From Zychaea mexicana (Eukaryota > Mucoromycota > Mucoromycetes > Mucorales > Lichtheimiaceae): a stretch of 64,000 bases of DNA. A program made the translations under genes and the position numbers. The notes below the pieces were generated by a model. It did not search any database. It saw only the letters and a program-made list of their open reading frames with translations, and had not been told where the DNA came from. Of this stretch, positions 1-16,759 are shown piece after piece. The number at the start of each line of letters is the position of its first letter. The stretch's first letter is position 1. The stretch covers positions 1-64,000 of the forward strand of contig NW_026516837.1 of NCBI RefSeq assembly GCF_025766255.1. The letters are read 5' to 3'.

Positions 1-1313
1 GTCATGCCAGGGTGGATTTTGAGCGACAAATCTTCGAGAACAACCAGGTCAGGACGGGTTGGGTACTTGAACTTGATATGACGGAATTCGATATCACCAT
101 GGAGCGTTTCAGGAGCCAACCCTTCGTCAGCATCAGGATCAATATCTGGCACTCGGTCAATTGTCGAATAAATTTTGTACGCAGCGCCACATGCACTCGA
201 AACGGCCGACAAGTTTGGAGGCACTTGAAGCAGCGCTATAGAACCCATCATCATACCCATCAACACAACCATAACGTTAGGGCCATCGAATTCGCCCGTC
301 TTGACCAGATGAGAGCCGAACCAGAAAGCGAGACCGTATGTCATGAACAGTATACTCATGAATAAACCAAAGCCAACACCCAGCACACAACCACGCTTGA
401 TGCCCATCTTGCGTGCCTTGACCAACTCCTTGTCGAATCGTTCGGCAAAACGCTCCTGCAATGAGAAACTGTAGACTGTGCGTAAACCGGCGAACACTTG
501 CTCGGCGACAGAACCGGCGTCGGCATATGCGTTTTGCACCTTGAGCGTGTATTTCTTAATCATAATACCCATGGTTACACCAGTGCCAAGCAACAGTGGC
601 ATCGTTGCAAGCAAGACAAGCGACATCTTCCAGCCCTTGACGAACGCCACAACATAACCGCAAATGAATTGTGAGAGACACAGAACCAACATGCCAAACT
701 TTTCAGAGATGCCGTCCTGTATCGTCTGCGTGTCAGAAGCCAAACGTGTTGTCAATGAGCCTTCTTCTGCTTTGTCGAACCAGCTCATGTCTTGTCGTAG
801 GATAGCATGGAGATACAACATTCGAATACGTCGAGTTTGGTTTTCGCCAGTCATGATCCAGAAACTGTTTGCCATATATGCTGCTACGAGCACTGCTGAT
901 CCGAGGTACACCAGCGTCAGGATCAATGGACGTGTTTGGTCGAGCAAAATCGCGGTGTTGCTCAGTGCTGCAGACAGGCTACGCAAGAAGTCGCCGAAAA
1001 TGACAATAGATACTGGTAGGATGGCGCCAGAGAATGCAGATCCAATCAGTGCAAAGGCGATCATGAACCGATCACGCTTAGTGCTGAACCTGAAGAGACC
1101 CAGCAGGGACACCGAGGGATTCTTTACCTTCTTCTTTCTCTTTTTTCCGTCGCTGTCATCGCTATTTACTTTGGTTGCTGTTGTTGCTTTGCTAATTTTT
1201 TGCTGTGATTTGAGGACTTTCAGTTGTTGTGGTTCTTTGTCTGTTGTTGTGTCGACCTTTTTGGTCAAGCTGCTCAAGGAAGCGAGCTCGGATTTGGATT
1301 CGTCGCTTTCCAT
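1..1313 (-). CDS. MDR-type (ABCB/P-glycoprotein-like) ABC exporter, N-terminal part, cut by window edge
   Basis: The minus-strand frame is open from the ATG at 1313 to the window edge (about 437 codons, no intron seen). A Lys/Ser-rich cytosolic N-terminus of about 65 residues precedes an ABC transmembrane domain type 1 with several hydrophobic segments. Landmarks include the QDMSWFD and TRLASDTQTIQDG stretches typical of ABCB exporters. The first nucleotide-binding domain then starts with IEFRHIKFKYPTRPDLVVL, and the frame leaves the window just before Walker A. In this family the full protein is TMD-NBD-TMD-NBD (about 1,300 residues), sits in a membrane and exports hydrophobic drugs, lipids or pheromone-like peptides using ATP. 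The substrate cannot be told from this part. The N-terminal half is certain at family level; a full-size (not half) transporter is inferred from the closest family style, since the second half is outside the window. Confidence 0.9.
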   Translation of the reverse strand, partial: MESDESKSELASLSSLTKKVDTTTDKEPQQLKVLKSQQKISKATTATKVNSDDSDGKKRKKKVKNPSVSLLGLFRFSTKRDRFMIAFALIGSAFSGAILPVSIVIFGDFLRSLSAALSNTAILLDQTRPLILTLVYLGSAVLVAAYMANSFWIMTGENQTRRIRMLYLHAILRQDMSWFDKAEEGSLTTRLASDTQTIQDGISEKFGMLVLCLSQFICGYVVAFVKGWKMSLVLLATMPLLLGTGVTMGIMIKKYTLKVQNAYADAGSVAEQVFAGLRTVYSFSLQERFAERFDKELVKARKMGIKRGCVLGVGFGLFMSILFMTYGLAFWFGSHLVKTGEFDGPNVMVVLMGMMMGSIALLQVPPNLSAVSSACGAAYKIYSTIDRVPDIDPDADEGLAPETLHGDIEFRHIKFKYPTRPDLVVLEDLSLKIHPGM

Positions 1314-3282
1314 CAAAAGCAATAATTATAGAAAATTGAATTGCAGTGAAAGAAGTGCAGGAGAAATATGGAGGAAGAGCGAGAAAACAAACGAAAAAAC
1401 AAAATCTATCGGATCACACACACGGCGTTTTTATTCTCTTGTCTTTAAATAGACATCTTGGGAATTCGGCGCTCATCCCGCCTTCCGCATATTTTCCTCT
1501 CATATATCACAGTGCTTCTGGGTCTTCCACTCTATATATTTGCCTATAAAGTAGGGGCTCAATGTTGCATAGTTGAGGTACATATTTTCTTATTTCTAAA
1601 CGGAACGAATGCTCGTAAAAAGTCATGATTTTGTCAAAAAATTTGAGTGGAAGACCTAAAACTGGAGACCCAGCTGCACAAGTCATGGTCATTCATACAC
1701 GCCTGTGTGTTACCCATTAAGTCATTCGAGAAAAATAACTATGCAGGCAGCAGTGATTGATATCTGTTAGCCCAAGCAGCCGTTGTACTGCAATTGCACA
1801 GAGTATCGCCTTCTCGGATAAATAGATAGCGAGCCTTCTAGCTTTCACAGCCGGATACAAGCTAATTTGAGCTGCCAAATATGGGCAAAATATCTTTTCT
1901 GGGTTTTCCTTGAATGTACCTCCGCTGGTACGGAAAATGGTCAAACATTCCCCGTAGTTCGGACCAAACAGCTTTCTCCAAAAAGCGTTTCCTTCTTCTG
2001 CAATAATGAATCACACATTTATAACAGAGACCTTTAAGCTGTCATGATGAATCGAAAGATATGCAATATATGCAACCAATGCGTTTATGCTGCATAACTC
2101 ATCGTCGCTGCGCAGTCTTGCTGCTGCTGCGGAACTATCGCATTCAGGATGATATAGTTGTTTTACACATAGCACACACAAGGCAGGGGAAATCCTGGGA
2201 AATGCAGTATCACTAAAGTACTAATCTACAAATTTTACTTTGCTTTTCGCTGATCTAGACTTATTGGCTGTATTCTCTCTACTATACGCCGCACCTCCGT
2301 GTATTTTGGCGACAAGTCCGTTCCGATACTCTGCGCGACATGAAAGGACGATTGGGCGTTGGTGAAGTCAGACAACATGTAGATACAATCGTCCCCGAAC
2401 TTTGTATATTTGTGTGCCACAAGACACACGGTGAGAGTTTACGATATAGGAAAGCACGCGTTCGTATATAGCTTGCTTTCGATCAGCTTTTCATACTATC
2501 TATTACTTGTCTAGAAACGGTGCTCTGTTTTAAACGACACTCACATATAGCAAATACTTGGAGCATGCTGCGGTTCTATAAGCTAGTCGTTATAGCGTTT
2601 TTTACCGTGATAGAAGCATATGATGAGTGCTCTACTTTCTTTAAACAGAAGCTGCATATCGACCGCATAACACTCTAAAATGTATACCATTGATTGTGGT
2701 GTGTGATTGTACTACCTTGAGTCATTCCTACGAATCAACCGAAAGAAGAGAACCGCGTGGAGTTACCCAAAAAGAACGGAATTGATCGCCGAAATCGGGG
2801 TTTTCTACCCGTCTGTCAAAGAAAGCAAATACACTGTACTAGGTAAACGCGGAAATAAACATGGCGCTTAGTTATTGATACGTACTCGGCGATAACTATT
2901 GGACATATCTGCGGGTACATAAAGAAAAGACGTTCAATAAACTTATCTATACATCATCATTACGCCGAACGAAATTCTTGCCCAGCGCAACTGAGCACAC
3001 AAATCGGCTAACTCGGATGGCGCTATTACGGAATACACATTTAGCGAGAATATCCCTGACAGCGTTGGCAGTGCATACATAGTTCTCCTGATAGTTGGCT
3101 CGGGAAGCTTGTTTTAAAAGCATTATTTAGTTCATGCACCTTGCATACTTCCACTACCTGGTATGTATTTTGTTTCCAACGGTGGTGGTGGTAAACAGTC
3201 CCAGTGTCTCCGATATATTACGTCTGTAATATCCACTACTTCCTCGTACCATGCGTTTTTGTACAGATTATATGACGCATGG

Positions 3283-3511
3283 CTTCAATTTCGAGCATGT
3301 TGTTAAAGGGTGCTAGTATATAGAGGGTTCAAGGGTAAGAAAGCACTCATCATTGCCTCTGAGAATTAAGGAGACTGGATTCGTATCTGCATGCACTTCA
3401 ATTTTCGAGCATGTTGTTGAAGGGTGCTAATATATGGAGGGTTCAAGGGTAAGAAAGCACTCATCATTGCCGCTGAGAATTAAGGAGACTGGATTCGTAT
3501 CTGCATGCACT
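3283..3511. repeat. Tandem duplication of a 114-bp unit
   Basis: Copy 1 is 3283-3397 and copy 2 is 3396-3511. Both run from CTTCAATTT(T)CGAGCATG to GTATCTGCATGCACT. They differ at only a handful of positions (one T indel near the start, A/G after TGTT, CTAGTATATAG versus CTAATATATGG, CCTCT versus CCGCT). No coding content is evident, so this is a recent local duplication of non-coding DNA. Confidence 0.9.
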
Positions 3512-4386
3512 CCGGGTCTTATATAAAGTTTCTGTACCAAAAATTATGTATAACAAGTCATTGGTTGTCTTCTATCCTACAACGAGTTGAGCAAGTTTAA
3601 ACCGGCGCCGTCGTTCATCAAATCATATGACGCAAAAAAAGAAACAACCTCTCACCGGTCAAAAACTTCTCCTACGATTTTTCTTTTACTGCTCGATGGT
3701 TTCTATGCGTGCCTGTAATTTTACGTGGTTCATGCAGCCAATTTTGCGTATGCTACTTAGACGAAAGCAGGATGTATTCACCTGTGGTATGATAGAAAAC
3801 GTTCAAGGGGACAATGACAACGAAAAAAGCGATACCACCTTCCTTGAAAACTACTTTGCTCAGCTCTCGAAAAGTTGTCTCGAGTGATATGAGCGAGTCA
3901 CTGGGTGGTACTGGCCTACCGGAATGGTATCGTTGTATTTTATTCTGCATTTACAGCATATCTCCATTTTTTGCACTGTAAGTCTCATCCGACACTTCAA
4001 AATTACATTCTATGCGCCACTTGTATGCGTTTGGTTCTTCAATGTATGTACATACATGAATTTTCCTTGACGACCTATGCCATGCACTTGAACACGTTGT
4101 GTCGCCATGAAAACTTCACATTAGTTGATTTTTTTTATCGCAACAGAAGACATAGCCAAACGACCCTTTCACCACCGGCCTTCGGCTCCAGCCCACCTGG
4201 TGTCGAACAGCCAGATGAGAAGTGTCAAAAAGATTTAATTTTATTTTGTCGCTTTGAAGTGATCTGCGAAATAAAGATTCACATGTATATGGCTTTATAT
4301 ACCCTGCATGCCACGTTTAAGAACAAGACGACTATATTTTTGTCTTGATATTGTCATACATAGGATAGAGGAAAACGTCAAAAATG

Positions 4387-4392
4387 TTTATT
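4387..4392 (-). terminator. Polyadenylation signal AATAAA for the 4406-4879 gene
   Basis: Read on the minus strand, AATAAA begins 14 nt after the stop codon of the hypothetical gene. This supports that gene being transcribed. Confidence 0.5.
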
Positions 4393-4405
4393 GTTCAAAA
4401 AGCAT

Positions 4406-4879
4406 CTACATCAATGCAAGCTCGCCCATTAATTCCATCATTTCGTCTGTATGGTCTTGATCTCTTTTCTTATCATCTACTACTTTCTGCTGATGGCTAT
4501 TATACATTCTTTTGAGATTCGCCAAAACCGAATCCGATGCAGCAGTATCATCCTTCTTGTCGCGTGGGGCTGCTGCAATACCAGGATTGTAAGAGCCTTG
4601 AGATGATGTCGATGGCTCTTGTTGTGCTGCATCCATCGTATCTTTTTTGGATGTCTGTTTGAAAATATCATGCAACCAAAATGATCCTTTGTTTGTATCG
4701 ATCAAAGATTTTTCGTTCAAGCTAGAGTAAAGCTCCAACAGGGTGGTCGGTGCTGCGAAATGTCTGGCTTTATGCTTTTGTGCCTTGTGTTTTTTTACGC
4801 TAGACCTGCGCTTCCTGCCATCAATGTTGTCCCGTCGGTTATAGTATATGTGCTGGCGTTTTGGCTTTGGCTCATCCAT
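4406..4879 (-). CDS. Small basic, low-complexity hypothetical protein
   Basis: Single exon, 157 residues from the ATG at 4879. The N-terminus is very basic with a KRR/KKHK-rich stretch at residues 20-40 that could be a nuclear localisation signal. A short helical-looking stretch (LLELYSSLNEKSLID) follows, then a Ser/Gln/Thr-rich middle and a charged C-terminus ending MMELMGELALM. No family is recognised. Support comes from the single ATG-to-stop frame, the AATAAA just after the stop, and composition like nuclear proteins elsewhere in the window. It stands alone between the ABC exporter and the Fanzor region. Confidence 0.5.
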   Translation of the reverse strand: MDEPKPKRQHIYYNRRDNIDGRKRRSSVKKHKAQKHKARHFAAPTTLLELYSSLNEKSLIDTNKGSFWLHDIFKQTSKKDTMDAAQQEPSTSSQGSYNPGIAAAPRDKKDDTAASDSVLANLKRMYNSHQQKVVDDKKRDQDHTDEMMELMGELALM

Positions 4880-5391
4880 CGGTTCAAAGATATATTATCA
4901 AGAAGAAAACATATTAACATGAATGATCATTGAAAACGAAAGTTACTGGCTCAGTTGTCTCCATCATCTGATAGCATTCCAGACCCTTGCAAAAACAAGA
5001 CTTAACACCAGCGCTCTGCCTTTTTTTTGAAGCACAAAGAATCATGATAACTACTGCAACAACGCGTCTGTCGGAAACTCCATAACTCAAGAATTAGTAT
5101 CATGCAATCATTGTTATAATCGGCGATAAAGGATAGTTAAAGCACTGCTACGCCGTGATATGGCATTTATCACGCCGCATGAGTGATGTTTGTCACGGTA
5201 TGGTCGCGAGAAGAAACGGCAAGGTGCAATATATCAAATCAATTTACATCACATGACTGATATACGAGGCACACCCACGGACTGATAAATTCTTGTCACA
5301 GCATGTATTAATAAAAGACACAAGCGTTGCATAATCTCGTTCATACTTTTACGCACAACGCTCTCATCATTTGTCATTTTCTTTTTCCTAC
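4880..5391. other. Non-coding flank; candidate original promoter of the XPG-Fanzor module
   Basis: No coding frame is supported. It ends in a pyrimidine-rich stretch (5375-5388) of the kind found just upstream of start codons here. If the 5392-9475 segment is turned back, this flank would lie directly upstream of the XPG-like start codon. It also holds a perfect inverted repeat: CGTGATA at 5154-5160 and TATCACG at 5168-5174, with a 7-nt spacer. Confidence 0.4.
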
Positions 5392-7444
5392 GCAAACAAC
5401 GTTTCACCTAGATCAAGGCCAATGGCACCGTCATATTCCCCTACTCCTCGTTCACCTTCTGGAGCTAATACGTTTAAGAATTATTTTACTGATTAACTTC
5501 ATGTCGATACGGCATTTCTCCTATGTTACGACTACCTACCATTTGCTTCAGCACGTGCAAGCATCTTCCTGATTTCTGGCAGGTAACGCAAAGTAGTAGT
5601 TCCAGAACCGCCTCTTGAGCCAGGTTTGGACCAGTCGGTCATGTTCGCAAACAGTTGCACGCCGTCTGTTCTGATCATACGCAACGTAAACCGCGGTGTA
5701 CCAGGTTCTACGGCACCCTCGAGGGTCTCATTGATAAACTTTTCGTATCCACGCTGTTTTGTCCTTAAAGCACCGTCTTGCAACTTGGTAGTACCATGCC
5801 CCAAATCAACAAGGAAAGAATATGGGTCATTGGAACGGACAGCCCGACGATTCTGCTGGCCATGGTGGTCTCTTGCATATTGGATCTTTTCTTCTTCTTG
5901 TAAATTAAAATATCTGCGATATCCCTCTTGCAATCGTACACGAGCATCATTCACACTGTCTCTCGCTACATAACATTTTGTAGAAGTCAAAATTCGTCAG
6001 TAAAAAGTTTTATAATTTTGCTCACATTTCACCGAAATCACCCCAACGTACCAGCTTGCAGTCGAGCCCTGTTGTCAATGTTTGTTTCTGCTCCCATAAG
6101 CGCATGCAGATTCATGTATATCGGCGCAGCAAAATATTCAAGGTGGTCAAATATGTTACGAATAAACGTTGATGGAAGTTGTACGGGGATTGTCTTGGTT
6201 GCAGCAGAAGGGCACGCAGCGAATGATAAAGTGTCAGGTAAACGCTCGAGCATGGCATTTTGCATCGAAAGAAGATGATGAGTTTGGCTACTTGAAGCCA
6301 CAACGGGTACTGGGTCATCGTCGGCGCCGTTGCTGTCGCCGTTGTTACCACGATTGCTACCGCCACTCGGATCTTCTTCAGCGCTGTCGTCATCAGTTTC
6401 GACTGCATTATCAAGTGCAGTATCACGCTGGATTTCTTCAATGGTACGCTTGAGACCACCAGCCTTTTTTGACGCGGATCTCGTCACTGGAGGGGCAGGG
6501 TGTGACGGTCCAGCTTGCGGTGGCGACGAAGGAGGTTGATCCTGTTGACCAGCAGCAACGACTTGAGATCGATCATCACGAGGACGCTTGATCACCAAAC
6601 AGTCAAATATGTCTAAAGGCCCTTGATCTTGATCTTGGTCAGCTAGCCGAACTCCAATTAGGCGACCTGTCACTTTTTGTAAAAACAGGCGTTCCTCAGT
6701 GATAAACGTCTCCAAAGCTTGTCGATTTTCTTCCGTGGCTTCTTGTGCGAGCGATTCAGCAACCTTTAAACATTTCGACAAATTGATTACAGACTCCATT
6801 TTTTCATTGCTTCTTAGTGGTATGTGCCAAATACGAGAGTAGATATACTCCGGGAGATCTTCACGTATGGGGAAATTAGCTGGTACTGTTGCTGCTCTCT
6901 TGAGGAGCAAGTCGATTCGCTCGTCGTTGAGCTCAACAGGATTCTTGCGAAGGTTCTTTCGCTGCTGCACTAACCAGGACCGCACTTGGTTCCGCACATC
7001 TTGGGCTAAAGCTGCGTACTGCTCTTGATGTTGGGCGTCCACCTGTTCGTTACGAAGCCAAGATAAAACATATGCTCGAAACCAGTTTTCCAAGGGCCAA
7101 CCTCTCGAGACACGGGCCAGAGAAGCCATACGTGCTTTAAGATACTTGATACTGTTGTCAGCAAAGCCTTGGACCACAGTTTGTCTGAACATCCGATCAA
7201 GTTCGTTTGAAATTGGTCTGATGAACTCAGAGCGAAACTTGGTCGAAAGTAGCAGGGGCTGCTCGACTTCTTGTTCACCATAGTACAGAAGCCACTTTTG
7301 TCTAGCGTACAGTATGATCTCGCGGAACTGTGGATTTGCAGACAGGCGACCAGTCAAAGATTCAGTTTTCAAAATATCATCTGGTGATTCGAGCAAGCGA
7401 AGCGGGCTGTTTTCGGCATTATACTCTGGAACATCTGGAATCAC
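5392..7444 (-). pseudogene. Fanzor (TnpB-like) nuclease, N-terminal half through RuvC-I
   Basis: Three exons: 7444-6052, 5965-5540 and 5464-5392, with GTACGT and GTAGGT donors and matching phases. The first has a long helical charged region (about 300 residues) with several Trp-rich spots, then an acidic Ser/Asp/Gly-rich linker. The second contains FTLRMIRTDGVQLFANMTDW, the TDG-type strand expected just before RuvC-I in TnpB/Fanzor proteins. The third carries GAIGLDLGETLF, a RuvC-I motif with the catalytic Asp. The frame then stops. RuvC-II, RuvC-III and the zinc ribbon are missing here but present on the plus strand from 9476. The four pieces together are 2,820 nt, exactly 940 codons including the stop. 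Upstream, the frame is the same as that of the XPG-like gene, separated by one TAA (7454-7456), so a fused gene is possible. As arranged now it cannot encode a complete nuclease. Confidence 0.7.
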
Positions 7445-7453
7445 CTGTAACTG

Positions 7454-9460
7454 TTAGGCTGCAGCGGTGACAGGGTCATAGTGGACTGGCGGCAGTCTTA
7501 AAAACGGAGCAAGTCCAACGATATTCACCCGTTGAGTATTATTCATCGCGCAATGCAAAAGGTTAAACCACGTTACACTTGAGTTGTCAGCGAAAAGCGG
7601 TCGGAAAGCTTGAGCTTTTGGGCCAGCTGGTAATGCATGCGCGTATCGAATAGCAAGATTGACTATTTGTAAGGTGATTTGTCGAACCAAAGATAATTCT
7701 TGCGCTTCTCTTCCCAGAATGTCCGCCATGAGCCTTGCTTCCATTTCTGCTTCACGTTGCAGCTGGACTGGTTCTCCTGGCTCTCCTTGCTTGCGACGAA
7801 CGGCAGCAGATAACAGTGATGAATACAGACCCATCGACCAAGTGGTGACTGCGCGGTTTTTCTGATATACAGTTTGCTCTTCGTGTGTTTGCAGGTTTGT
7901 CACTCTGACGCTGCTAAATTGTCCACCACCTCGAACGCCTTGCCCTTGGCCGCTGCCCGTTCTTCGCGTCTTGATTCTTCTTATTTTGGGCTTAATTTTT
8001 TTGGGGCGCTTGGGAAGGTCATCAGTTTTTTCAGGTGTGGTTTGATCCGATGTCACGCAACGCACGTTTGGAACGAAGGTGTAAAGACTGCCCAAAAATG
8101 GAGGTTGTCCCCGAGGTACATGAGGGTTACGATAAGGTGCTGCTGGCTCTGGGGGACGGAAAAGAGCAGTATATTCCGGTATACGTTCTTCAAATTCCAA
8201 CTGATTAGGTGTCGGTCCTGCATGTTGTTCTGGGAGCAGCATTGGTGACAAGCAGAATTGGTATAAGGCAAGACGCATTTCTTGTCTGACGAAGAAAGGT
8301 ACGGTAAACAGATCAAGCAGATTCTCAAACATCTCATCTGGCCTCGTTTCGAGAGAATTTGGTCCTTGGTCATCGATAATTCTGATCAAAGTAGAACGCA
8401 TAACACCAAAGCGTATGCCGCTCAGATGCATGGAGTAATCATTGCCTCCCGAGGCAGCCAACACAGCAAGACGGCGCTCCGCCATATCCATATTATCTTC
8501 ATCTTCATTACGGAGTTGTAGGTTTTGCAGTACACGCGTCTTAGTTGTCATTTCTTCTACCCTGAGTGTTCCCCAGTCAACCTTCATGATGCGCAGCGTA
8601 TCAAGGCAGCCGCCATAAGCAAAGAGATCACTGTCAGGTGAGAATATCGCCACCTGATTTGCGGGAAAGGCATTGGCAAGTGCGACAACTGCGCCGTCGG
8701 CTTCATACGTTGCTTGATGGTATGTAAACAATCGCGTGTTGTTTCGACTATACTCCTCCGCACCAGCCATCTGGAGAACCTGTTTGATAGATAAAAAAAA
8801 TACTTAAATCTATGATTTTCACTCTGGTTAATATTTGATACTTACACGTATGATTCCCTGTTTAATATCGGTGGAAAAGCGAACCCATTCTCTCGCAGCT
8901 CTCCTGTACTTGCTGCTGTGGACACCCTCAGAAGGACGGATAAATGCTTCCTTCGCTTTTCGAAAATGGCTCTTGCTATATTCATCGCGCTGGGCATGCA
9001 ATCTCGCTTTCAGTGGAAAGGCGTCGCCGTCCATGACAAATACCACTTGGTTTTGATTGTTTGCCAATTTACTCGCCTTTTCGATGATGCCAAGAGTGAT
9101 ACGAATAAACATGCCATTTGTTTCTTCTTCTGTGGGATGGTCTACAGTGATTTGAAATGGTAAGAAAACTACAACATACATTGTATAACACCCGTAAAAA
9201 CATACTTTTCAAGTGCAAAATGTGCAAAATATCGGCGCATGTTGTCGCAAGTCTTCAAAAAAGACGCATGCAAAGTCGATAAAAACTCGCGTTATCCCCT
9301 TTTCGATAAGGAGATTAAAAGCATTATCGGCTGTTTGGAAACAATCGAGCCGCTTAGCGAGCGGATGGAAGCCCTAAGTATGGTTCATATTACGATGCGT
9401 TAGATACACAAACGTTTGCCAAGAGTTGAGTTATTAACGTCACCGTACCAGAAGTCCCAT
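7454..9460 (-). CDS. XPG/FEN1-like structure-specific nuclease, adjacent to and in frame with Fanzor N-half
   Basis: Exons: 9460-9449 (MGLL), 9373-9206, 9141-8846, 8779-7454. Motifs of the XPG/FEN1 superfamily appear in order. The N-domain starts MGLLGFHPL with RVFIDFACVFF (first metal-binding Asp). VVFVMDG is the second, YEADGAVVALA the internal acidic pair, IFSPDSDLFAYG the DxD, and GGNDYSMHLSGIRFG the helix-turn-helix Asp. All catalytic acidic positions I can place are present. The C-terminal 270 residues are not recognised and include a Lys/Arg-rich stretch (PKRPKKIKPKIRRIKTRR). One oddity: exon 2 in its reading frame meets TGA just before its GTATGT donor, so a one-base frameshift or sequence error is likely there. 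The family cuts flap or bubble DNA during replication and repair. Linkage to Fanzor suggests a role in the mobile module, which is inference. Confidence 0.7.
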
Positions 9461-9475
9461 AATGATGATTGCCGC

Positions 9476-10403
9476 AGGTGCATTTTTTTTGCCCAGCGAG
9501 CACCATGTCCATGACACCGGTGTTCAGTATACTGTGAAAAAGAATGAGATATATGGTCGACAAGGATTGAATGGTAGATGGCTACACGACAGAAAGCTCG
9601 CTGCTGGCATGGATGTACTGGAAGCGCGACTTATGGCTGGTAGCAAGAAATCGAACCTTGCTAAGTTCATGCTATACGTGCGTGCATGGCAGACTGACAA
9701 TGTAGGCATCAATCTCTGGCAGTTCTATTCTCAGCGTTCGGTTCGGCGCAAAGCTTGGGACACCCGCATTTCCATGGATTCTGCAATAAACAAGGCCACG
9801 GACACAATTCTGAATATGATCAAAGGTCCACCACCACAACGATTTCCAAGCGACCATCATGCAATTACGGCCGATGACAAGAGAACCCGTCGAAAACGTA
9901 GGAGACGAAGGAGGTGTGAATGGAACAAGGAACAGTGGGAATCCGAACGGCCCGTTCTGCTCGGTTTTGGTGCAGACGCACTCACTACTGGCGATCATCG
10001 AAGAGGCTCACGGCCCGCTTTGGATGCTAAGCTAGCCACAAGGTTACTCATTCGAGCGAAAAGCAAAAAGGGACGTCGCTTTGTACCTGTCCGCATTGAC
10101 GAATACGGTACATCAAAGTTCTGCCCGCGCTGTGCCATGTTTGGACGTGTAACTGAGTTACGTTTACTCCGGCGGCCACCTCCTCTTCGCCATGCCCTCA
10201 ATATGGACCAACTCAACGATCTTGGTGAAGACGAAGTCATCCGCATCAAGGTTTGTCCACAATGCCAGCAAGAAGGCCATGGTGTGTTTCATCGAGACGG
10301 TGCCTCAGGTCATTGTCAGTCAACAATTGCGATGGCAATGCTCGAACACGGCCAACGGCCAGGTCAGTTCATTCGCCCATCACGCAAGATCCCAAACAAT
10401 TAG
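9476..10403 (+). pseudogene. Fanzor (TnpB-like) nuclease, C-terminal half: RuvC-II/III and zinc ribbon
   Basis: The frame is open from about 9462 to TAG at 10401-10403, but no plausible start belongs to it; the family homology starts mid-protein. In order: YTVKKNEIYGRQGLNGRW, a helical stretch with FYSQRSVRRKAW, a basic linker of nine Arg/Lys in a row, LLGFGADAL (RuvC-II region), VRIDEYGTSKFCPRC and KVCPQC (zinc ribbon with two Cys pairs), and FHRDGASGHCQSTIAMAM (RuvC-III, catalytic Asp, matching the RDxNAAxNI pattern). In Fanzors the RuvC glutamate is reported to be displaced towards the DEY-TSK region, which fits the E seen here. RuvC-I and the whole N-lobe are missing and lie inverted at 5392-7444. 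The stop is followed at once by two hairpins and by AATAAA. Confidence 0.8.
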
Positions 10404-10437
10404 ACCGTCTTCGTCAGGACGGTCGGGTTTACACCCG
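10403..10437 (+). other. Two adjacent hairpins at the Fanzor stop codon; candidate omega-RNA or element-end structure
   Basis: Hairpin 1: GACCGTC (10403-10409), 8-nt loop, GACGGTC (10418-10424), perfect. Hairpin 2: GGGT (10425-10428), 4-nt loop, ACCC (10433-10436), extendable by one C-G pair that competes with hairpin 1. TnpB and Fanzor guide RNAs are known to derive from the 3' end of the nuclease locus and to contain compact stems. Position and structure fit, but expression and boundaries are unknown. Confidence 0.4.
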
Positions 10438-10456
10438 TGGCTTGCTAGTGGTAAGT

Positions 10457-10462
10457 AATAAA
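10457..10462 (+). terminator. Polyadenylation signal AATAAA downstream of Fanzor C-half
   Basis: AATAAA lies 54 nt after the TAG of the Fanzor C-terminal half and after the two hairpins, as expected for the original gene's 3' end. Confidence 0.45.
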
Positions 10463-11209
10463 ATTATTGTGTGCATATTGTGGCGCGAATATTCGTTGCT
10501 AATTATGGAACCTCCAGACATAGTCACACAGCCCATCAAATAGATATGTATCTGCTGTTGATCATTGCATGTCCACTACCGCAGTGACGGTGCGGATTGG
10601 AGCTTTCTGTAGAAAAACGTAAAGTAAAGACTTATCAAGAATTTTTTTTCGCTGCTCCCTCGTTGAAGCTTGTCGTTCGCTTCTTGCAGCTTGAGACGGG
10701 ATGGTTTTTGGAGGCTTGTAGCCACAAAGGATGAGACACTGTCTTTAGTCAACCGTTACTTAAGAGAAAATTCTGTGTGCATGATTTCCATATGCTCCTT
10801 GTTGTGAATCAAGAAAATTGTACAGCTTATTAATGAGTTTTTTCCACTAATTTGTGCTGATCAAATAAGCACATCCCATCGGCAACAATGGAGGTGCAAA
10901 CGGAATTCGCCTTTAGTAAGCTTGATGACAGAGCTAAACAGCCGCTGCTGTTTGAGAAATTGAAGTCGCTGTAAGAAACATTAGAGATAAGCGTTCATGT
11001 TTCAAGGCATAGTGATATACTCAATGGAGGTGAAAGGCATGATGATAATAGACGCGAAAAAGAAACGGAAAGAAGTAAATTACAATGCAAACAACCCAGC
11101 TCCCGACAGCGGCTAATTTAGTTACCGAAGCTCGGTTCTTTTGTCAGCTACTTTTTGGCTTAACCTTCAACAACCACAACATAATCGTTCTGTTCTTGTT
11201 GCGTCGACC
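10463..11209. other. Intergenic region between Fanzor and MDL1-like gene
   Basis: No supported gene. Short frames exist (a 28-codon ATG frame at about 10888 and a 25-codon one at about 11038), but neither has family resemblance. The last 100 bp are probably the promoter and 5' leader of the ABC half-transporter. Confidence 0.45.
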
Positions 11210-13975
11210 ATGCTCCGGTGTCTGTCTTTGACCAGCTCTCGATGGGCATTAAGGAGCAGTGCTGTTTCCAGCACTACTCAACGACTATTACGACCGCGCA
11301 TCGTGCCACCAGGTCAATTGCCACCTTCGCGATCGCTGGGCGATCGCATGCCATTCTCGGTCTCCACGGCAGTACGACAACAGATCGACAAGGCATCAAA
11401 AGCAACAACTGAAGCAGCTGCCAAAGCTGAAAAGGAAGCTGCTGATAAGGCAGCCAAAAGCAAAAAAAAGGCTGCCGAAACAAAAGATATCAAGCAACTT
11501 TTCCAACTCGCTAAACCTGAGGCAAAGAGTATTTCTGGTATGTTTTATTGCTATGATGCTTTTATTTCTCGGTTATTGGGAAGGAAAACCGTCATTGTGT
11601 AAGCTGTTTTTCCACAGCAAGAACTGACAGTGATATCTTTTTTCAACAAAAAAAAAGCTGCCATTGCCTTATTAGTGATTTCGTCTTCGGTTACTATGGT
11701 AAAAGGGAAATGGAGGAATAGTTGTGCTGTTGGGTACAACAATGTATTAAAAAACGATGGTATATCTAGTCTGTTCCATTTTCAATGGGCAAAATCATCG
11801 ATATCGTTACGCATCCTGAAGTCAAGGAGTATATGGGCTTCACGATGCCTCAATTTATGGGTGCCTTGTCCGCCGTGTTTATTGTGGGTGCATTGGCCAA
11901 CAGCGGTCGTGTACTCTTATTCCGGTTAGCAGGAGAGCGGATCATTCAGCGCTTACGAAACAACCTATACCGGAATATTCTGGGTCAAGACATGGCGTTC
12001 TTTGATAAGAATCGAACGGGTGAACTTATTTCTCGCTTATCGGTCGATACTGCCATTGTTGGCAAAAGTATTACTGGCAATGTCAGTGATGGGTTAAGGT
12101 GGGATCCTTACTTTATATCATCGGTATCTCATGTGATCTAATACTGACTGAATATCTGTTGCTGCTATGTCACAGAGCGTTAGCTACTGCAATCGTAGGC
12201 AGCTCCATGATGCTGTGGGTCAGGTAACACTTAAACGAAAAAATCAAAGATACGATGTAAAGGTCCAACTAACTACTTTCCTGAATTTTGTATAGTCCAA
12301 AACTGACAGCAGTGATGATGATTGTGGTCCCTCCTGTGAGCATTTTCGGTGTTATATATGGTCGCTATGTCAAGACGCTGTCGCGAAAAACGCAAACAGC
12401 ACTGAGTGAGATTACCAAACTCGGCGAAGAGCGGATAAGCAGCATCCGTACGGTGCAAGCTTTCGCAAAGGAGAATGTAGAGGGCAAACGCTACCATCAA
12501 AAGGTATTGGGCGTTTATGATCTGGCCCGAAAGGAGGCTATTGCAAGTGCGGTATTCTTTGGTGGTGCAGGTCTTTCTGGCAACTTGGCAATTCTGGCAG
12601 TATTATGGTATGGTGGCCACATGGTGATGAATGATGCTATTACCATTGGTCAACTGGCATCTTTCATGTTATACACTGCCTACGTTGGCACTTCTTTGGG
12701 AGGTACGATGTCAATCTATTTAATTATTGATATGGGTCGAAAAGTGAAAATAAGCAAAAATTGAATGTAAACTTGTGGTGTATCATACAGGTTTAACGTC
12801 GTTTTACTCGGAAATTATGAAGGGCGCTGGTGCAGCTGAGCGCCTATTCGAATTACAGAATAAGCAGAGTGCTTTTCAGCTTGACAGTAAGTATAGTGGG
12901 CTAGCTAGTAATACCTACACCACGGGATTGAAGTTACTGATTCGGTTTTACTACATTTAGGCGGCAAGATTCTGGATACGTTACAGGGCAAGATCCGCTT
13001 TGAAAACGTGTTCTTCACATACCCCACTCGACCACACTCTCCTATCTTTAAAGATCTTTCGCTAACCATCCAACCGGGAACTGGTAAGTTTTATCAATTT
13101 AAACTATTTTTATTGATCTTACTGTTATAGAAAGAGGAGACTGACGCCTGAGGTCCGCAAAACAAACTACAGTAATTGCTATTGTTGGTTCATCTGGCTC
13201 TGGAAAATCAACTATTGGATCGTTGTTATTACGCTACTATGATGCGGACAAGGGATCTATCTACATTGACGATGAAAACCTCAAAGACATCAACTTGCAC
13301 TGGTGGCGCGAAAACGTTGGTGTGGTATCGCAAGAACCTGTCCTTTTCGCTGGCACCATCCGTGACAATATCGCTTACGCCAAAGAAAGTGCGACCATTG
13401 ACGAAATCAAAGAAGCTGCCACCAAAGCCAACTGTGCCTCGTTCATTGAATCCTTCCATGACAAATATGACACTGTTGTGGGTGAACGCGGTGTCAGCCT
13501 GAGCGGTGGTCAGAAGCAGCGTATCGCTATTGCTCGTGCATTGCTCAAGAATCCGTCAATTCTTGTTCTGGTAAAACATAAACACAACTGACATCTGCTA
13601 GATGATATAAAGAGGAGGGCTAACATAATGATATAGGATGAAGCCACAAGTGCTCTGGATAGTGAATCAGAAGTCTTAGTGCAAGATGCCTTGAACCATC
13701 TAATGCAAGGAAGAACAGTTGTTACAATCGCTCATCGTCTTTCCACGATTCGCTCGGCCGACCTTGTCATGTGTCTTGAAAACGGTGGTGTTGCAGAAAT
13801 GGGCACCTATTACGACTTGCTGAATAAGAAGGATGGTGTTTTCCGAAAGCTGGTTGAGCTTCAATCGCTTGGAGGAGACCCCTCGCAACAAAAGCGCCAT
13901 CACCGTGACGAGCAGCAGCATGACAATAATGATAACGACTATAACGCTGAACGAAACGATCACAACCGATACTGA
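11210..13975 (+). CDS. MDL1: Mitochondrial ABC half-transporter, MDL1/ABCB10 type
   Basis: Nine exons: 11210-11537, 11631-11698, 11770-12098, 12176-12223, 12296-12702, 12791-12886, 12961-13083, 13173-13570, 13637-13975. They total 2,136 nt, giving 711 residues, close to yeast Mdl1 and human ABCB10. The N-terminus is rich in Arg/Ser and free of acids ([17 protein letters not shown]), as in a mitochondrial presequence, and an Ala/Lys-rich linker follows. The membrane domain carries [20 protein letters not shown] and [20 protein letters not shown]. The ATPase domain has Walker [10 protein letters not shown] (472-480), Q-loop VVSQEP, signature LSGGQ (576-580), Walker [12 protein letters not shown] (D600/E601) and the H-loop AHR (H632). 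Known relatives sit in the inner mitochondrial membrane and export peptides or haem-related substrates. The first acceptor is the least certain junction. The C-terminal tail is rich in His/Asn/Asp. Confidence 0.93.
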
Positions 13976-14205
13976 TTGATGAAAAATAGCCTCACCACAT
14001 ACACACGCTCGTCCTAAACTTCCAGCTTCTCTCGCTTTCTCCACTCCACACATGCCTCCTACATATACATACACACTTCAACATCTATATACAGCAGACA
14101 CTTTGTTACATTACTATAAATATAATCTTTATAGAGAGTTTTCTTTCTGTTTTACCTCATCAAAGCAAGTTCCATCCCACATTTGATATGTATGCTTTTT
14201 TATTA

Positions 14206-14769
14206 TTATGCGCCTTTTAAAGATCTGAAATAAACGGATTCCAGATCATAAATGGTTGTTTGTAACTCTGCACGCATTTTAAAGACTGTATCTTTAATCT
14301 CATATCTTTGCGTTTCCAGTGCCTCTGTTCGTTGCTTTGTAAGTTGTGATAATAATGCAGTGTCGTTTAGTAGCAAGTGTTGTTTCAGTTCCGTGATCAG
14401 GCCCAATAATGATTCAGCCGAGCGTACCTTTTTTGTTGTCGTTGTTAGTTCACATTGAATACCGAATATCGCAAGGATAAACATAAAAAGATACTTACTA
14501 TTTGGGCACTTTGACTTTCTATTTGATATCCTTCCTCAGCTACGCGAAACTTGTCCTTATCTTTGTTCTATTTCATCGGAATGGCGCTTTTAGTAAATTG
14601 CTCCAGATCTATCGCAGCACACGGTCAGTCATACTTCGCCAACTCGAACAATGTCGGTAAAGCAATCCACTAATTTGGCTATATCGTCGTCAATGCGTTT
14701 ATTATATTGGTCTTCAGCGTTCACCAGTGTTTGTCGTGCACCTGTCGTTCCTTTGTTCGCGGCTGCCAT
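14206..14769 (-). CDS. MED22: Mediator complex subunit 22 (MED22/Srb6)
   Basis: Three exons: 14769-14635, 14567-14499, 14427-14206; 426 nt, 141 residues. The N-terminal half reads YNKRIDDDIAKLVDCFTDIV, then FRVAEEGYQIESQSAQIVRSAESLLGLITEL, then KQHLLLNDTALLSQLTKQR. This order and spacing match MED22 (in human: short Tyr-Asn-Lys-Arg motif, VRAGESLMKLVSDLKQ, LILND), and length agrees with the short form. The protein is helical and sits in the Mediator head module, linking activators to RNA polymerase II. It is transcribed divergently from the PP2C gene, with 196 bp between the start codons, so they probably share a promoter. AATAAA overlaps the stop region. Confidence 0.92.
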
Positions 14770-14965
14770 GGTATAGTTTATATAGAAAAAAGTAAGAGAG
14801 AAAAACGAACGTACGTGTGTGCAACACATGCCGAATGACTCCGCAACACAATATTGAAACAGGCTCCGGCTGCGCTTAACCTCTTTTTCCTGCTTGGCTT
14901 CGCTTTGCAACTGACCTACTCACACACCCTTTCCTAACCAACAGCATTGAACCCCCTAAAAAATC

Positions 14966-16759
14966 ATGGGTCAAACATTGTCTGAACCTATCACCACCAA
15001 GGAATCCACCGAAGGCGGAGATGCACGCGTCAAGTATGGTGCATCGTCTATGCAAGGATGGAGAATCAGTACGCCTTTTTTTCTAACGTGATTGACAAAA
15101 GAAAGGAAAGGGGGGGGAGTCTTAAAGGAAACAGTGTCATCTTGAACGCGCGTATAGACTTATGAACAATTGCACACTTCTTTCTATAAGATATGGAAGA
15201 TGCCCATACGACGATTCCCGAGTACAAAAACACGGGTGCTAGCTTCTTTGCAGTATTTGACGGACACGGAGGTATTATATTATTCAGTAGATACGGATTA
15301 TATCATAATAACATTGCTTTTGCTGCCACATTTACTCATTGATTCTTTGTAGGCTCTGCCGTGGCAAAATACAGTGGTGAGCATCTGCATAATTTGGTGT
15401 TTGATTCCAAGTTTTATCAGCAAGGCGACTACCGCGAGGCGTTAAGAAGTAGTTTCTTGGGGATCGATGAGGCGCTTCGTAAAGGTAAAAAGGATTGCCT
15501 CAATTGGTGTGAAGCGGGGGTAATAATGATATGCTATGATGTATTCTCTCATGATGGAGAGGATAAAGGAGTAGGAGGAATGGCGAGGATATGCTAGTAA
15601 TAACGGTGATTGCTGTTCCTCTTGTTGTTAGATCCGGTCTACGAGAACGAGACATCGGGTTGTACCGCTGTAGCCGCGCTGCTGACAAAAGATAACGTTC
15701 TTTATGTGGTATGTGTTTCATGGGTAGCCACGCGCGCGTGTGTGTGCGTGTGTGTTCGTGTGCGTGTGGCTCCGTCTCGCCTCTTTTGTGGATGTATGCG
15801 CGGGTTACTCTAGTTGACTGAAAAAGGAAATCCACGTTTCGTTGTCTTAGAGCAATGCAGGTGATTCCCGTGCCATCATCAGTACCAACGGTCGCGCTAT
15901 TGCCCTTTCTCAAGACCACAAGCCGGGCAATGAGAAGGAAATCGCTCGTATCGAAAAGGCGGGTGGGCATGTAGAATTCGGTCGTGTCAATGGTAAATAC
16001 AAATAGGATACTGCGGCCGGGGCAAAGTGGATGTAAAGAAAGGATGTTGTTGTCTCACTCTTTTTCTATTGCACGACATAGGTAATCTTGCATTATCTCG
16101 CGCGCTTGGTGATTTTGAGTTCAAGCGAAGACAGGATCTCCCTGCAGAAGAACAGGTCGTCAGCGGTAAAACAAACAGAAGATGAAAGAGTGAGGATAAA
16201 CTTTACGATAGAAAGATGCTTACTGTGCGTACGGTGTTTCTTTAAATTTAGCCGAACCCGATGTTACTGAGCATCGGTTAATACCACAAGACGAATTCGC
16301 CGTCATTGCTTGTGATGGTAACGATTAGAAAAGATTAACAATTGAAAATTATTCTGTGTATACATATTTGGATGTGGGATACTAAACGGTAATACTCTTA
16401 TCACTACAGGTATCTGGGACTGTATGACCAACCAGCAAGTAGCAGACTTCATACGTACCAAAATTAAGGAAAAGGTCGACCTGAAAACGATTTGTGAAAA
16501 CCTCATGGACAAATGTCTTGCAGAACACAGCGATTTCGGTGGTGTTGGCTGTGATAACATGACCGTTATCATCGCCGCATTCCTGCAGGGCAAAACGATC
16601 GACGATTGGTACCAGGCTGTGGGTGACAAGGTCCCTGAACCTACAGGCGTTGTGCTTAAAGAAGACGGTGAACCTGAATTGAAGAAGCCTAGACAGCAGC
16701 AACCGAACAATGAAGAAGAGAAGAATAACACGACTGCATCTAGTAACAGCAAGGCTTAA
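14966..16759 (+). CDS. PP2C-family protein phosphatase (PTC2/PTC3-like)
   Basis: Eight exons: 14966-15068, 15191-15271, 15353-15484, 15632-15708, 15851-15992, 16082-16165, 16252-16317, 16410-16759. They total 1,035 nt, giving 344 residues. It begins MGQTLSEP, with Gly2 available for N-myristoylation, then YGASSMQGWR and MEDAH. Metal-binding motifs are VFDGHGG (D58, G59), AGDSRA (D136), ACDGIWD (D228, D232) and GCDNMTV (D277, N278), so all PP2C catalytic elements are present. The tail is Gln/Asn/Glu-rich. It dephosphorylates Ser/Thr in a Mg/Mn-dependent way; yeast relatives switch off MAPK and checkpoint kinases. The exon 2 acceptor (ATAAG) is a little unusual but keeps the conserved frame. 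Confidence 0.94.

Follow-up and report, generated by a model that had tools for sequence, protein, structure and literature searches.

The window, as we call the 64,000-nucleotide stretch analysed here (the start of contig NW_026516837.1 of the Mucorales fungus Zychaea mexicana, contig C84 below), carries a 6.9-kb transposable element in which the gene for a Fanzor/TnpB-like nuclease is split by an inversion. The element was compared by DNA searches with the whole 50.3-Mb genome of the fungus. At least three long copies were found, in the window and on contigs C101 and C5, together with a remnant on C290; copy counts from these searches are lower bounds. The gene was modelled as six phased exons with a total length of 4,631 nt (~1,540 codons), arranged in the window as follows.

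3624 to 10533, plus strand: copy of the transposable element, 6.9 kb, with the ends CATATGACGC... and ...GTCACACAGCC, common to three copies and uncertain by a few bases
5398 to 9469, or 5399 to 9468, minus strand: inverted segment, one A being common to each junction
9449 to 9460, minus strand: exon 1, MGLL including the start codon; phase and GT-AG intron verified in the C101 copy
9206 to 9373, minus strand: exon 2, putative XPG N-region with the first catalytic Asp (VFIDF); frameshift in the window copy
8846 to 9141, minus strand: exon 3, remainder of the putative XPG N-region (VFVMDG); Pfam XPG_N at E 0.023 for the open reading frame (ORF) containing it, under the cut-off
6052 to 8779, minus strand: exon 4, putative XPG I-region and GGNDY followed by a long middle part; in-frame stop at 7454-7456; Pfam XPG_I at E 0.0041 and 0.0029, under the cut-off
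5540 to 5965, minus strand: exon 5, placed by phase, with RTDGVQLF, comparable with the TDG motif of the Fanzor1 WED domain in the available excerpt of PMC10711439
5398 to 5464, minus strand: exon 6, 5' part, coding for RuvC-I (GAIGLDLGET) and separated from the rest by the inversion; placed by phase and copy comparison
9470 to 10403, plus strand: 3' part of exon 6, with the rest of RuvC, the alternative Glu (codon 10101-10103), the C4 zinc ribbon and the RuvC-III HRD

In blastn comparison of window positions 1-15000, the segments 3619-5398 (95.1%) and 9469-10534 (96.4%) matched C101 on one strand, while 5398-9469 matched the opposite strand (98.0%). The same reversed pattern was obtained for C5 in 11 pieces of 88-98%, with several kb of extra sequence between them. 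C101 and C5 are mutually collinear, and window segment 5398-9469 is reversed relative to both. In C101 the RuvC-I part runs into the zinc-ribbon half in a single 370-aa frame uninterrupted by stops. An order on one strand was also found in the degraded relative on C290 (exon 4 part, then zinc-ribbon part) and in a relative on C31 with 33% identity in the C-terminal half (RuvC-I as GVDLGRR, then the matching second half). Since all four loci keep one common order, the window orientation is the derived one. The opposite polarity, with the window orientation as the ancestral state, was rejected, because the frame is open across the join in C101 and the relatives share the order of C101. The inversion of 4.1 kb is thus real. 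The earlier note, made from the window sequence, had proposed that a simple inversion split the nuclease gene and that the halves rejoin in frame upon reversal; both proposals are borne out by C101, and collinear homologues, for which it suggested a search, do exist.

The breakpoints lie at 5397/5398 with 9469/9470 or, equally, at 5398/5399 with 9468/9469, within 6 bp of the sites 5392 and 9475 given by the earlier note, so that its placement was close but needed correction. The inverted piece is 4,070-4,072 bp long. When the old junctions are recut and rejoined, the window junctions are reproduced exactly, with 0 bases lost or gained and one ambiguous A. The GC that had been noted at both breakpoints is really a 6-bp inverted match, GCAAAC/GTTTGC, near both old breaks. 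This match is weak, because 114 of 5000 random 14-mer pairs from the element also reach 6 bp. Base differences between the window and C101 were 1.4% in the left part, 1.6% in the inverted part and 2.6% in the right part; as the divergence of the inverted part from C101 fits that of its neighbours, it is not of visibly different age. Relative to C5, the inverted segment differs by 5.6%.

Repeated sequence such as this element can be misjoined by assemblers, and the inversion was observed in assembled sequence. Misjoins usually require long shared sequence, however, and the two breaks share 1 to 6 bp. The inverted segment bears the window copy's own differences from C101 and C5, to an extent that matches its neighbours. 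The sequence at the first junction is unique within the window. An assembly error, one of the options left by the earlier note, is therefore very unlikely. The second of these options, an invertible segment that switches the nuclease on and off, would agree with a base-exact inversion and with the 6-bp inverted match at the breaks, but we regard it as scarcely credible. The match is displaced by 3 nt from the position that recombination within it would produce and is equalled by the random pairs mentioned above, and a Pfam scan of nine ORFs of the element detected no recombinase domain. In addition, both other long copies are in the single old orientation, lesions are present in all three copies, and the stop and frameshift of the window copy would leave neither of its orientations functional.

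The gene is longer than the 2,820 nt (940 codons) first counted, its N-terminal XPG/FEN1-like part having been overlooked. In C101, exons 1-4 join in one reading phase across GT-AG introns of 75, 64 and 67 bp. In the window, joining exon 4, exon 5 and the first section of exon 6 across introns of 86 and 75 bp gives 1,073 in-phase codons, interrupted by one stop. The lesions of the window copy are the exon 2 frameshift, the exon 4 stop and the inversion. Measured against the window frames, exon 4 of C101 is broken by three indels and two stops; a further frame-breaking indel lies in its exon 5 and another in its C-terminal half, and its version of a second ORF of the element (described below) has one indel plus one stop. 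Frame-breaking indels and stops are more numerous in C5 than in C101. The dN/dS values between window and C101 ranged from 0.25 to 1.05 over five pieces with few changes, in keeping with weak or past constraint.

Order, breakpoints, lesions and exon phases are observed; we infer the repair route and that the flip followed insertion. The copy in the window is probably a dead one, of a 6.9-kb transposon present in low copy number. The gene of this transposon would have coded for an XPG/FEN1-like and a TnpB/Fanzor-like part in one protein and was broken, most simply, by a one-off end-joining inversion. Two double-strand breaks would have occurred, one 8-9 bp before the start codon, which sits at that distance inside the breakpoint, and the other ~14 bp past the codon of the catalytic Asp of RuvC-I. 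End joining would then have formed the two present junctions, with the middle piece reversed and zero base loss. The inversion parted the coding start from the sequence that had preceded it and cut through the RuvC domain, so that the window copy can yield no working nuclease. Inversion of this kind is an ordinary route of death for a transposon copy. As the element codes for two nuclease-like parts and the flip is internal to it, with outer ends matching those of other copies, the breaks could also have been made by its own nucleases or during attempted transposition, and then misjoined. By eye, however, the breakpoints showed no clear likeness to the element ends, and such breaks are not distinguishable here from random ones. 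We consider this source of the breaks clearly unlikely and retain one-off end joining.

For the C-terminal half, published descriptions of Fanzor were used as given in the available excerpts of the papers cited. The Fanzor motif is D-X(125,275)-[TS][TS]-XX-C4-X(5,50)-RD (PMC3627910). In the C101 protein, the D is followed by 218 residues, TS, the C4 zinc ribbon, 9 residues and RD. The alternative Glu of Fanzor is located six residues before the zinc motif (PMC10711439), and the same spacing from E to C was found in DEYGTSKFC. This Glu was invariant in 5 of 5 aligned rows, only three of which are clearly distinct (window and C101 are 97% alike, and P0001 is the C101 copy). The RuvC1 DPG motif is near exclusive to Fanzor and part of its fingerprint (PMC10711439), and sequences with the alternative Glu fall into two clades, one with DPG that includes the Fanzors and one with a hydrophobic residue (PMC10711439). 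The window, C101 and C5 copies and the C31 relative all have DLG; a Fanzor on C54 of the same genome has DPG. The element family thus carries the motif of the hydrophobic-residue clade in a fungal genome. The Fanzor identity proposed earlier agrees with the alternative Glu, the zinc ribbon and the RuvC-III RD but not with the DPG fingerprint, and because DLG replaces DPG we call the protein Fanzor-like rather than a proven Fanzor.

Besides the absence of DPG, two results weigh against the proposed Fanzor-like part: the zinc ribbon of the window scored 16.8 bits with Pfam PF07282 vs a cut-off of 26.3, and the predicted structure of the C-terminal half reached a pLDDT of 43. In its favour, the database relative P0002 (324 aa, 59-61% identical) passes the same cut-off with 27.9 bits. 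It begins after RuvC-I, but since its contig spans only 1,843 bases it tells little about a separate N-terminus. A Protein Data Bank (PDB) search with the C-terminal half gave 0 matches at E <= 0.001. Fanzor1 of Spizellomyces and of Parasitella appeared through DE(Y/F)xTSxxCPxC at E 1.8 (last of the 8 matches listed) and 2.2 (last of the 2 listed), which we read as likeness of motif and not as significant similarity. Upon comparison of the C-terminal half with the C54 Fanzor, 72 of 1000 shuffles were as good in local and 279 of 1000 in global alignment; likeness to this DPG-type protein is therefore not significant for the element's own sequence. For P0002 the corresponding values were 4/1000 and 118/1000. 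By analogy with TnpB and Fanzor, an RNA from the element's right end may direct the intact protein to cleave DNA at sites where the element is absent. The folding z score was -2.07 for 10395-10534 and -0.54 for the last 95 nt (10440-10534) alone, a moderate fold that speaks neither for nor against a guide RNA, and Rfam gave zero matches at gathering scores in window 3500-11000.

Upstream of the RuvC nuclease, the first ~330 residues resemble XPG/FEN1 proteins in MGLLGFHPLAK, VFIDF, VFVMDG, YEADGAV, SPDSDLFAYGG and GGNDY. Three 5'-nuclease Pfam families matched in the correct order (XPG_I E 0.0029, 5_3_exonuc_N E 0.021, XPG_N E 0.14), each under its curated cut-off, the N-region preceding the I-region as it should. 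The seven positions that we take to be the XPG catalytic acids, and GxDY, fell in the columns of the host FEN1, with Asp here at one of the paired Glu positions; the first acid was placed by global alignment to host FEN1 and the others by two alignment runs. In the shuffle test against host FEN1, none of 1000 shuffles equalled the global alignment score, and the local one was equalled once in 1000. Several results count against this assignment. The curated Pfam scores for the XPG N- and I-regions were not reached by the window protein. In the comparison with a RAD2 fragment, 4/1000 (local) and 33/1000 (global) shuffles scored as well, and hhalign with two host XPG proteins gave a weak probability of 0.7% (P 0.081). 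Global alignment to FEN1 left the two Met-Gly starts offset by 3 residues. For a PIN-like fold, AlphaFold2 reached a pLDDT of 35.8 on the exon 4 part alone. The XPG-like part had no PDB sequence match at E 10.

The fusion of two nucleases rests on moderate statistics. The XPG-like exons might belong to a separate gene, or code for no XPG nuclease, leaving only the RuvC part as a Fanzor-like protein. The sub-threshold Pfam matches, the weak hhalign and RAD2 comparisons and the poor structure prediction point in that direction, as does the lack of an above-chance XPG match in the sequence read ahead of the C31, C54 and C79 relatives. Nevertheless, the XPG I-region and the ~750 residues following it share one 909-codon exon with a single stop, the splice phases agree from exon 4 to RuvC-I, the three 5'-nuclease families are correctly ordered and the acid pattern is complete. 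We therefore consider a separate or non-XPG origin unlikely and prefer the single fused protein.

The own genome contains nine PF07282 matches. Several kb of upstream sequence were read for C31 (to 19400), C54 (to 66800) and C79 (331800-336600), and the best XPG match there, at C54, covered 20 residues with E 0.026 when that locus was searched by itself. The other six loci were checked in ~1.5 kb of flank. The XPG part looks special to the family of this element, although this is not settled. Protein databases offered no relative of the whole protein at E 0.001 among 7,996 scored candidates, nor of exon 4 at E 0.01 among 7,997, out of 5.8 billion proteins; these results, too, speak against the proposed architecture. 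The absence of relatives means little, because spliced fungal genes may be underrepresented in the protein library. For the C-terminal half, 2 of 2,151 candidates matched, one being the C101 copy itself; a database protein was identical to the C101 copy across 78% of the query. A search of viral contigs with six peptide patterns gave no viral relative of this half.

If the fusion is true, it would suggest how a eukaryotic relative of TnpB could couple cutting to end processing, and the DLG motif, if true, questions DPG as a general fingerprint of the eukaryotic members. The fusion is more notable than the inversion, but is still unproven without an intact relative. In the open-licence literature searched, nothing pairs Fanzor with XPG or OrfB_Zn_ribbon with XPG; Fanzor does co-occur with flap endonuclease or FEN1 among the matches listed, as far as the excerpts extend. 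One protein combining a FEN1-like nuclease with a RuvC nuclease of the Cas12 type would be, as far as that literature goes, an unreported architecture. By analogy, processing of 5' flaps or branched DNA in excision or integration would fall to the XPG-like half, as a trimming activity. A bolder reading, less likely than not, is a eukaryotic TnpB-like lineage with the alternative Glu and DLG, fused to a FEN1-like flap nuclease and borne on a transposon without terminal inverted repeats (TIRs); its protein would be bifunctional, cutting under RNA guidance and trimming flaps, and would stand apart from both Fanzor1 and Fanzor2.

Among known systems, Fanzor1 (SpuFz1, PpFz1; PMC10432273, PMC11423790, in excerpt), which occurs in fungi including Mucorales, shares with the element the RuvC domain, the alternative Glu just before the C4 zinc ribbon, the RD after it and a TDG-like motif upstream. 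The element differs in DLG instead of DPG, in its ~1,540 codons, in the XPG/FEN1-like front and in that no TIRs were found. MCi-2 of Mucor circinelloides is likewise a long Mucorales Fanzor element without recognisable TIRs and of unsettled superfamily, according to the excerpt of PMC3627910. It has 11-12 bp duplications of the pattern ATAATTNNNN(N), with a Crypton fragment in one subfamily; the present element, compared by description only, has an 8-bp CATCAAAT at one copy and the XPG-like part. FEN1/XPG nucleases resemble the element in the catalytic acids and GxDY as aligned with host FEN1 and in the Met-Gly protein start; the element differs in its sub-threshold Pfam scores, the fused RuvC nuclease and its location on a transposon.

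Three further features concern the element as a unit.

3616 to 3623, no strand: putative target-site duplication CATCAAAT, left; identical 8 bp abut each end of the window copy
10534 to 10541, no strand: putative target-site duplication CATCAAAT, right; direct repeat partner of the left copy
4406 to 4894, minus strand: second ORF, 162 aa counted from the preceding stop; no family above cut-off

The C101 copy has no direct repeat at its ends, and at C5 CCATCATATG occurs at each boundary and overlaps the left end presumed here; the exact ends and the length of the duplication are for these reasons not fixed. No TIRs were detected within 200 bp of the element ends, the longest ungapped match being 8 bp. 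In the window copy CATCAAAT flanks both sides and the flank at 11100-16000 has no second long copy, as an element inserted as a unit would show. That the copies are allelic rather than transposed was rejected, as this flank has only 39-125 bp matches elsewhere. Search for non-autonomous copies with the right end gave just the three known copies, and the exact left-end pattern just two of them. A point against the transposon reading is that the Pfam scan of nine ORFs of the element gave no transposase domain. The second ORF has a Lys/Arg-rich start and, in the old orientation, it and the nuclease gene point away from each other; it is alignable in C101 and C5, with its frame broken in each.

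Some loci elsewhere in the genome carry related domains. The DPG-type Fanzor on C54 (66800-75400; L066, and L068 3008-3658) has long ORFs upstream, one of which (217 aa) is reminiscent of an OTU protease but matched no Pfam family at E 0.5. Zinc-ribbon matches at C57:109681 and C246:152963 both scored 53.2 bits in a 95-aa open frame and are possibly recent Fanzor copies. XPG_I matches at C15:105858, C263:142500 and C305:130241 lie in equal 121-aa open frames (78.1, 78.1 and 72.4 bits), perhaps representing a repeated element that carries an XPG gene. Within the upstream region of the element, a short stretch (window 5127-5197) is also present on C223 and C248 (90-91%), and C5 holds ~390 bp of extra sequence at this point. 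Beside the insertion, window 11770-12761 contains two fragments of the membrane region of an ABC transporter, a host gene that is not accompanied by a second long copy.

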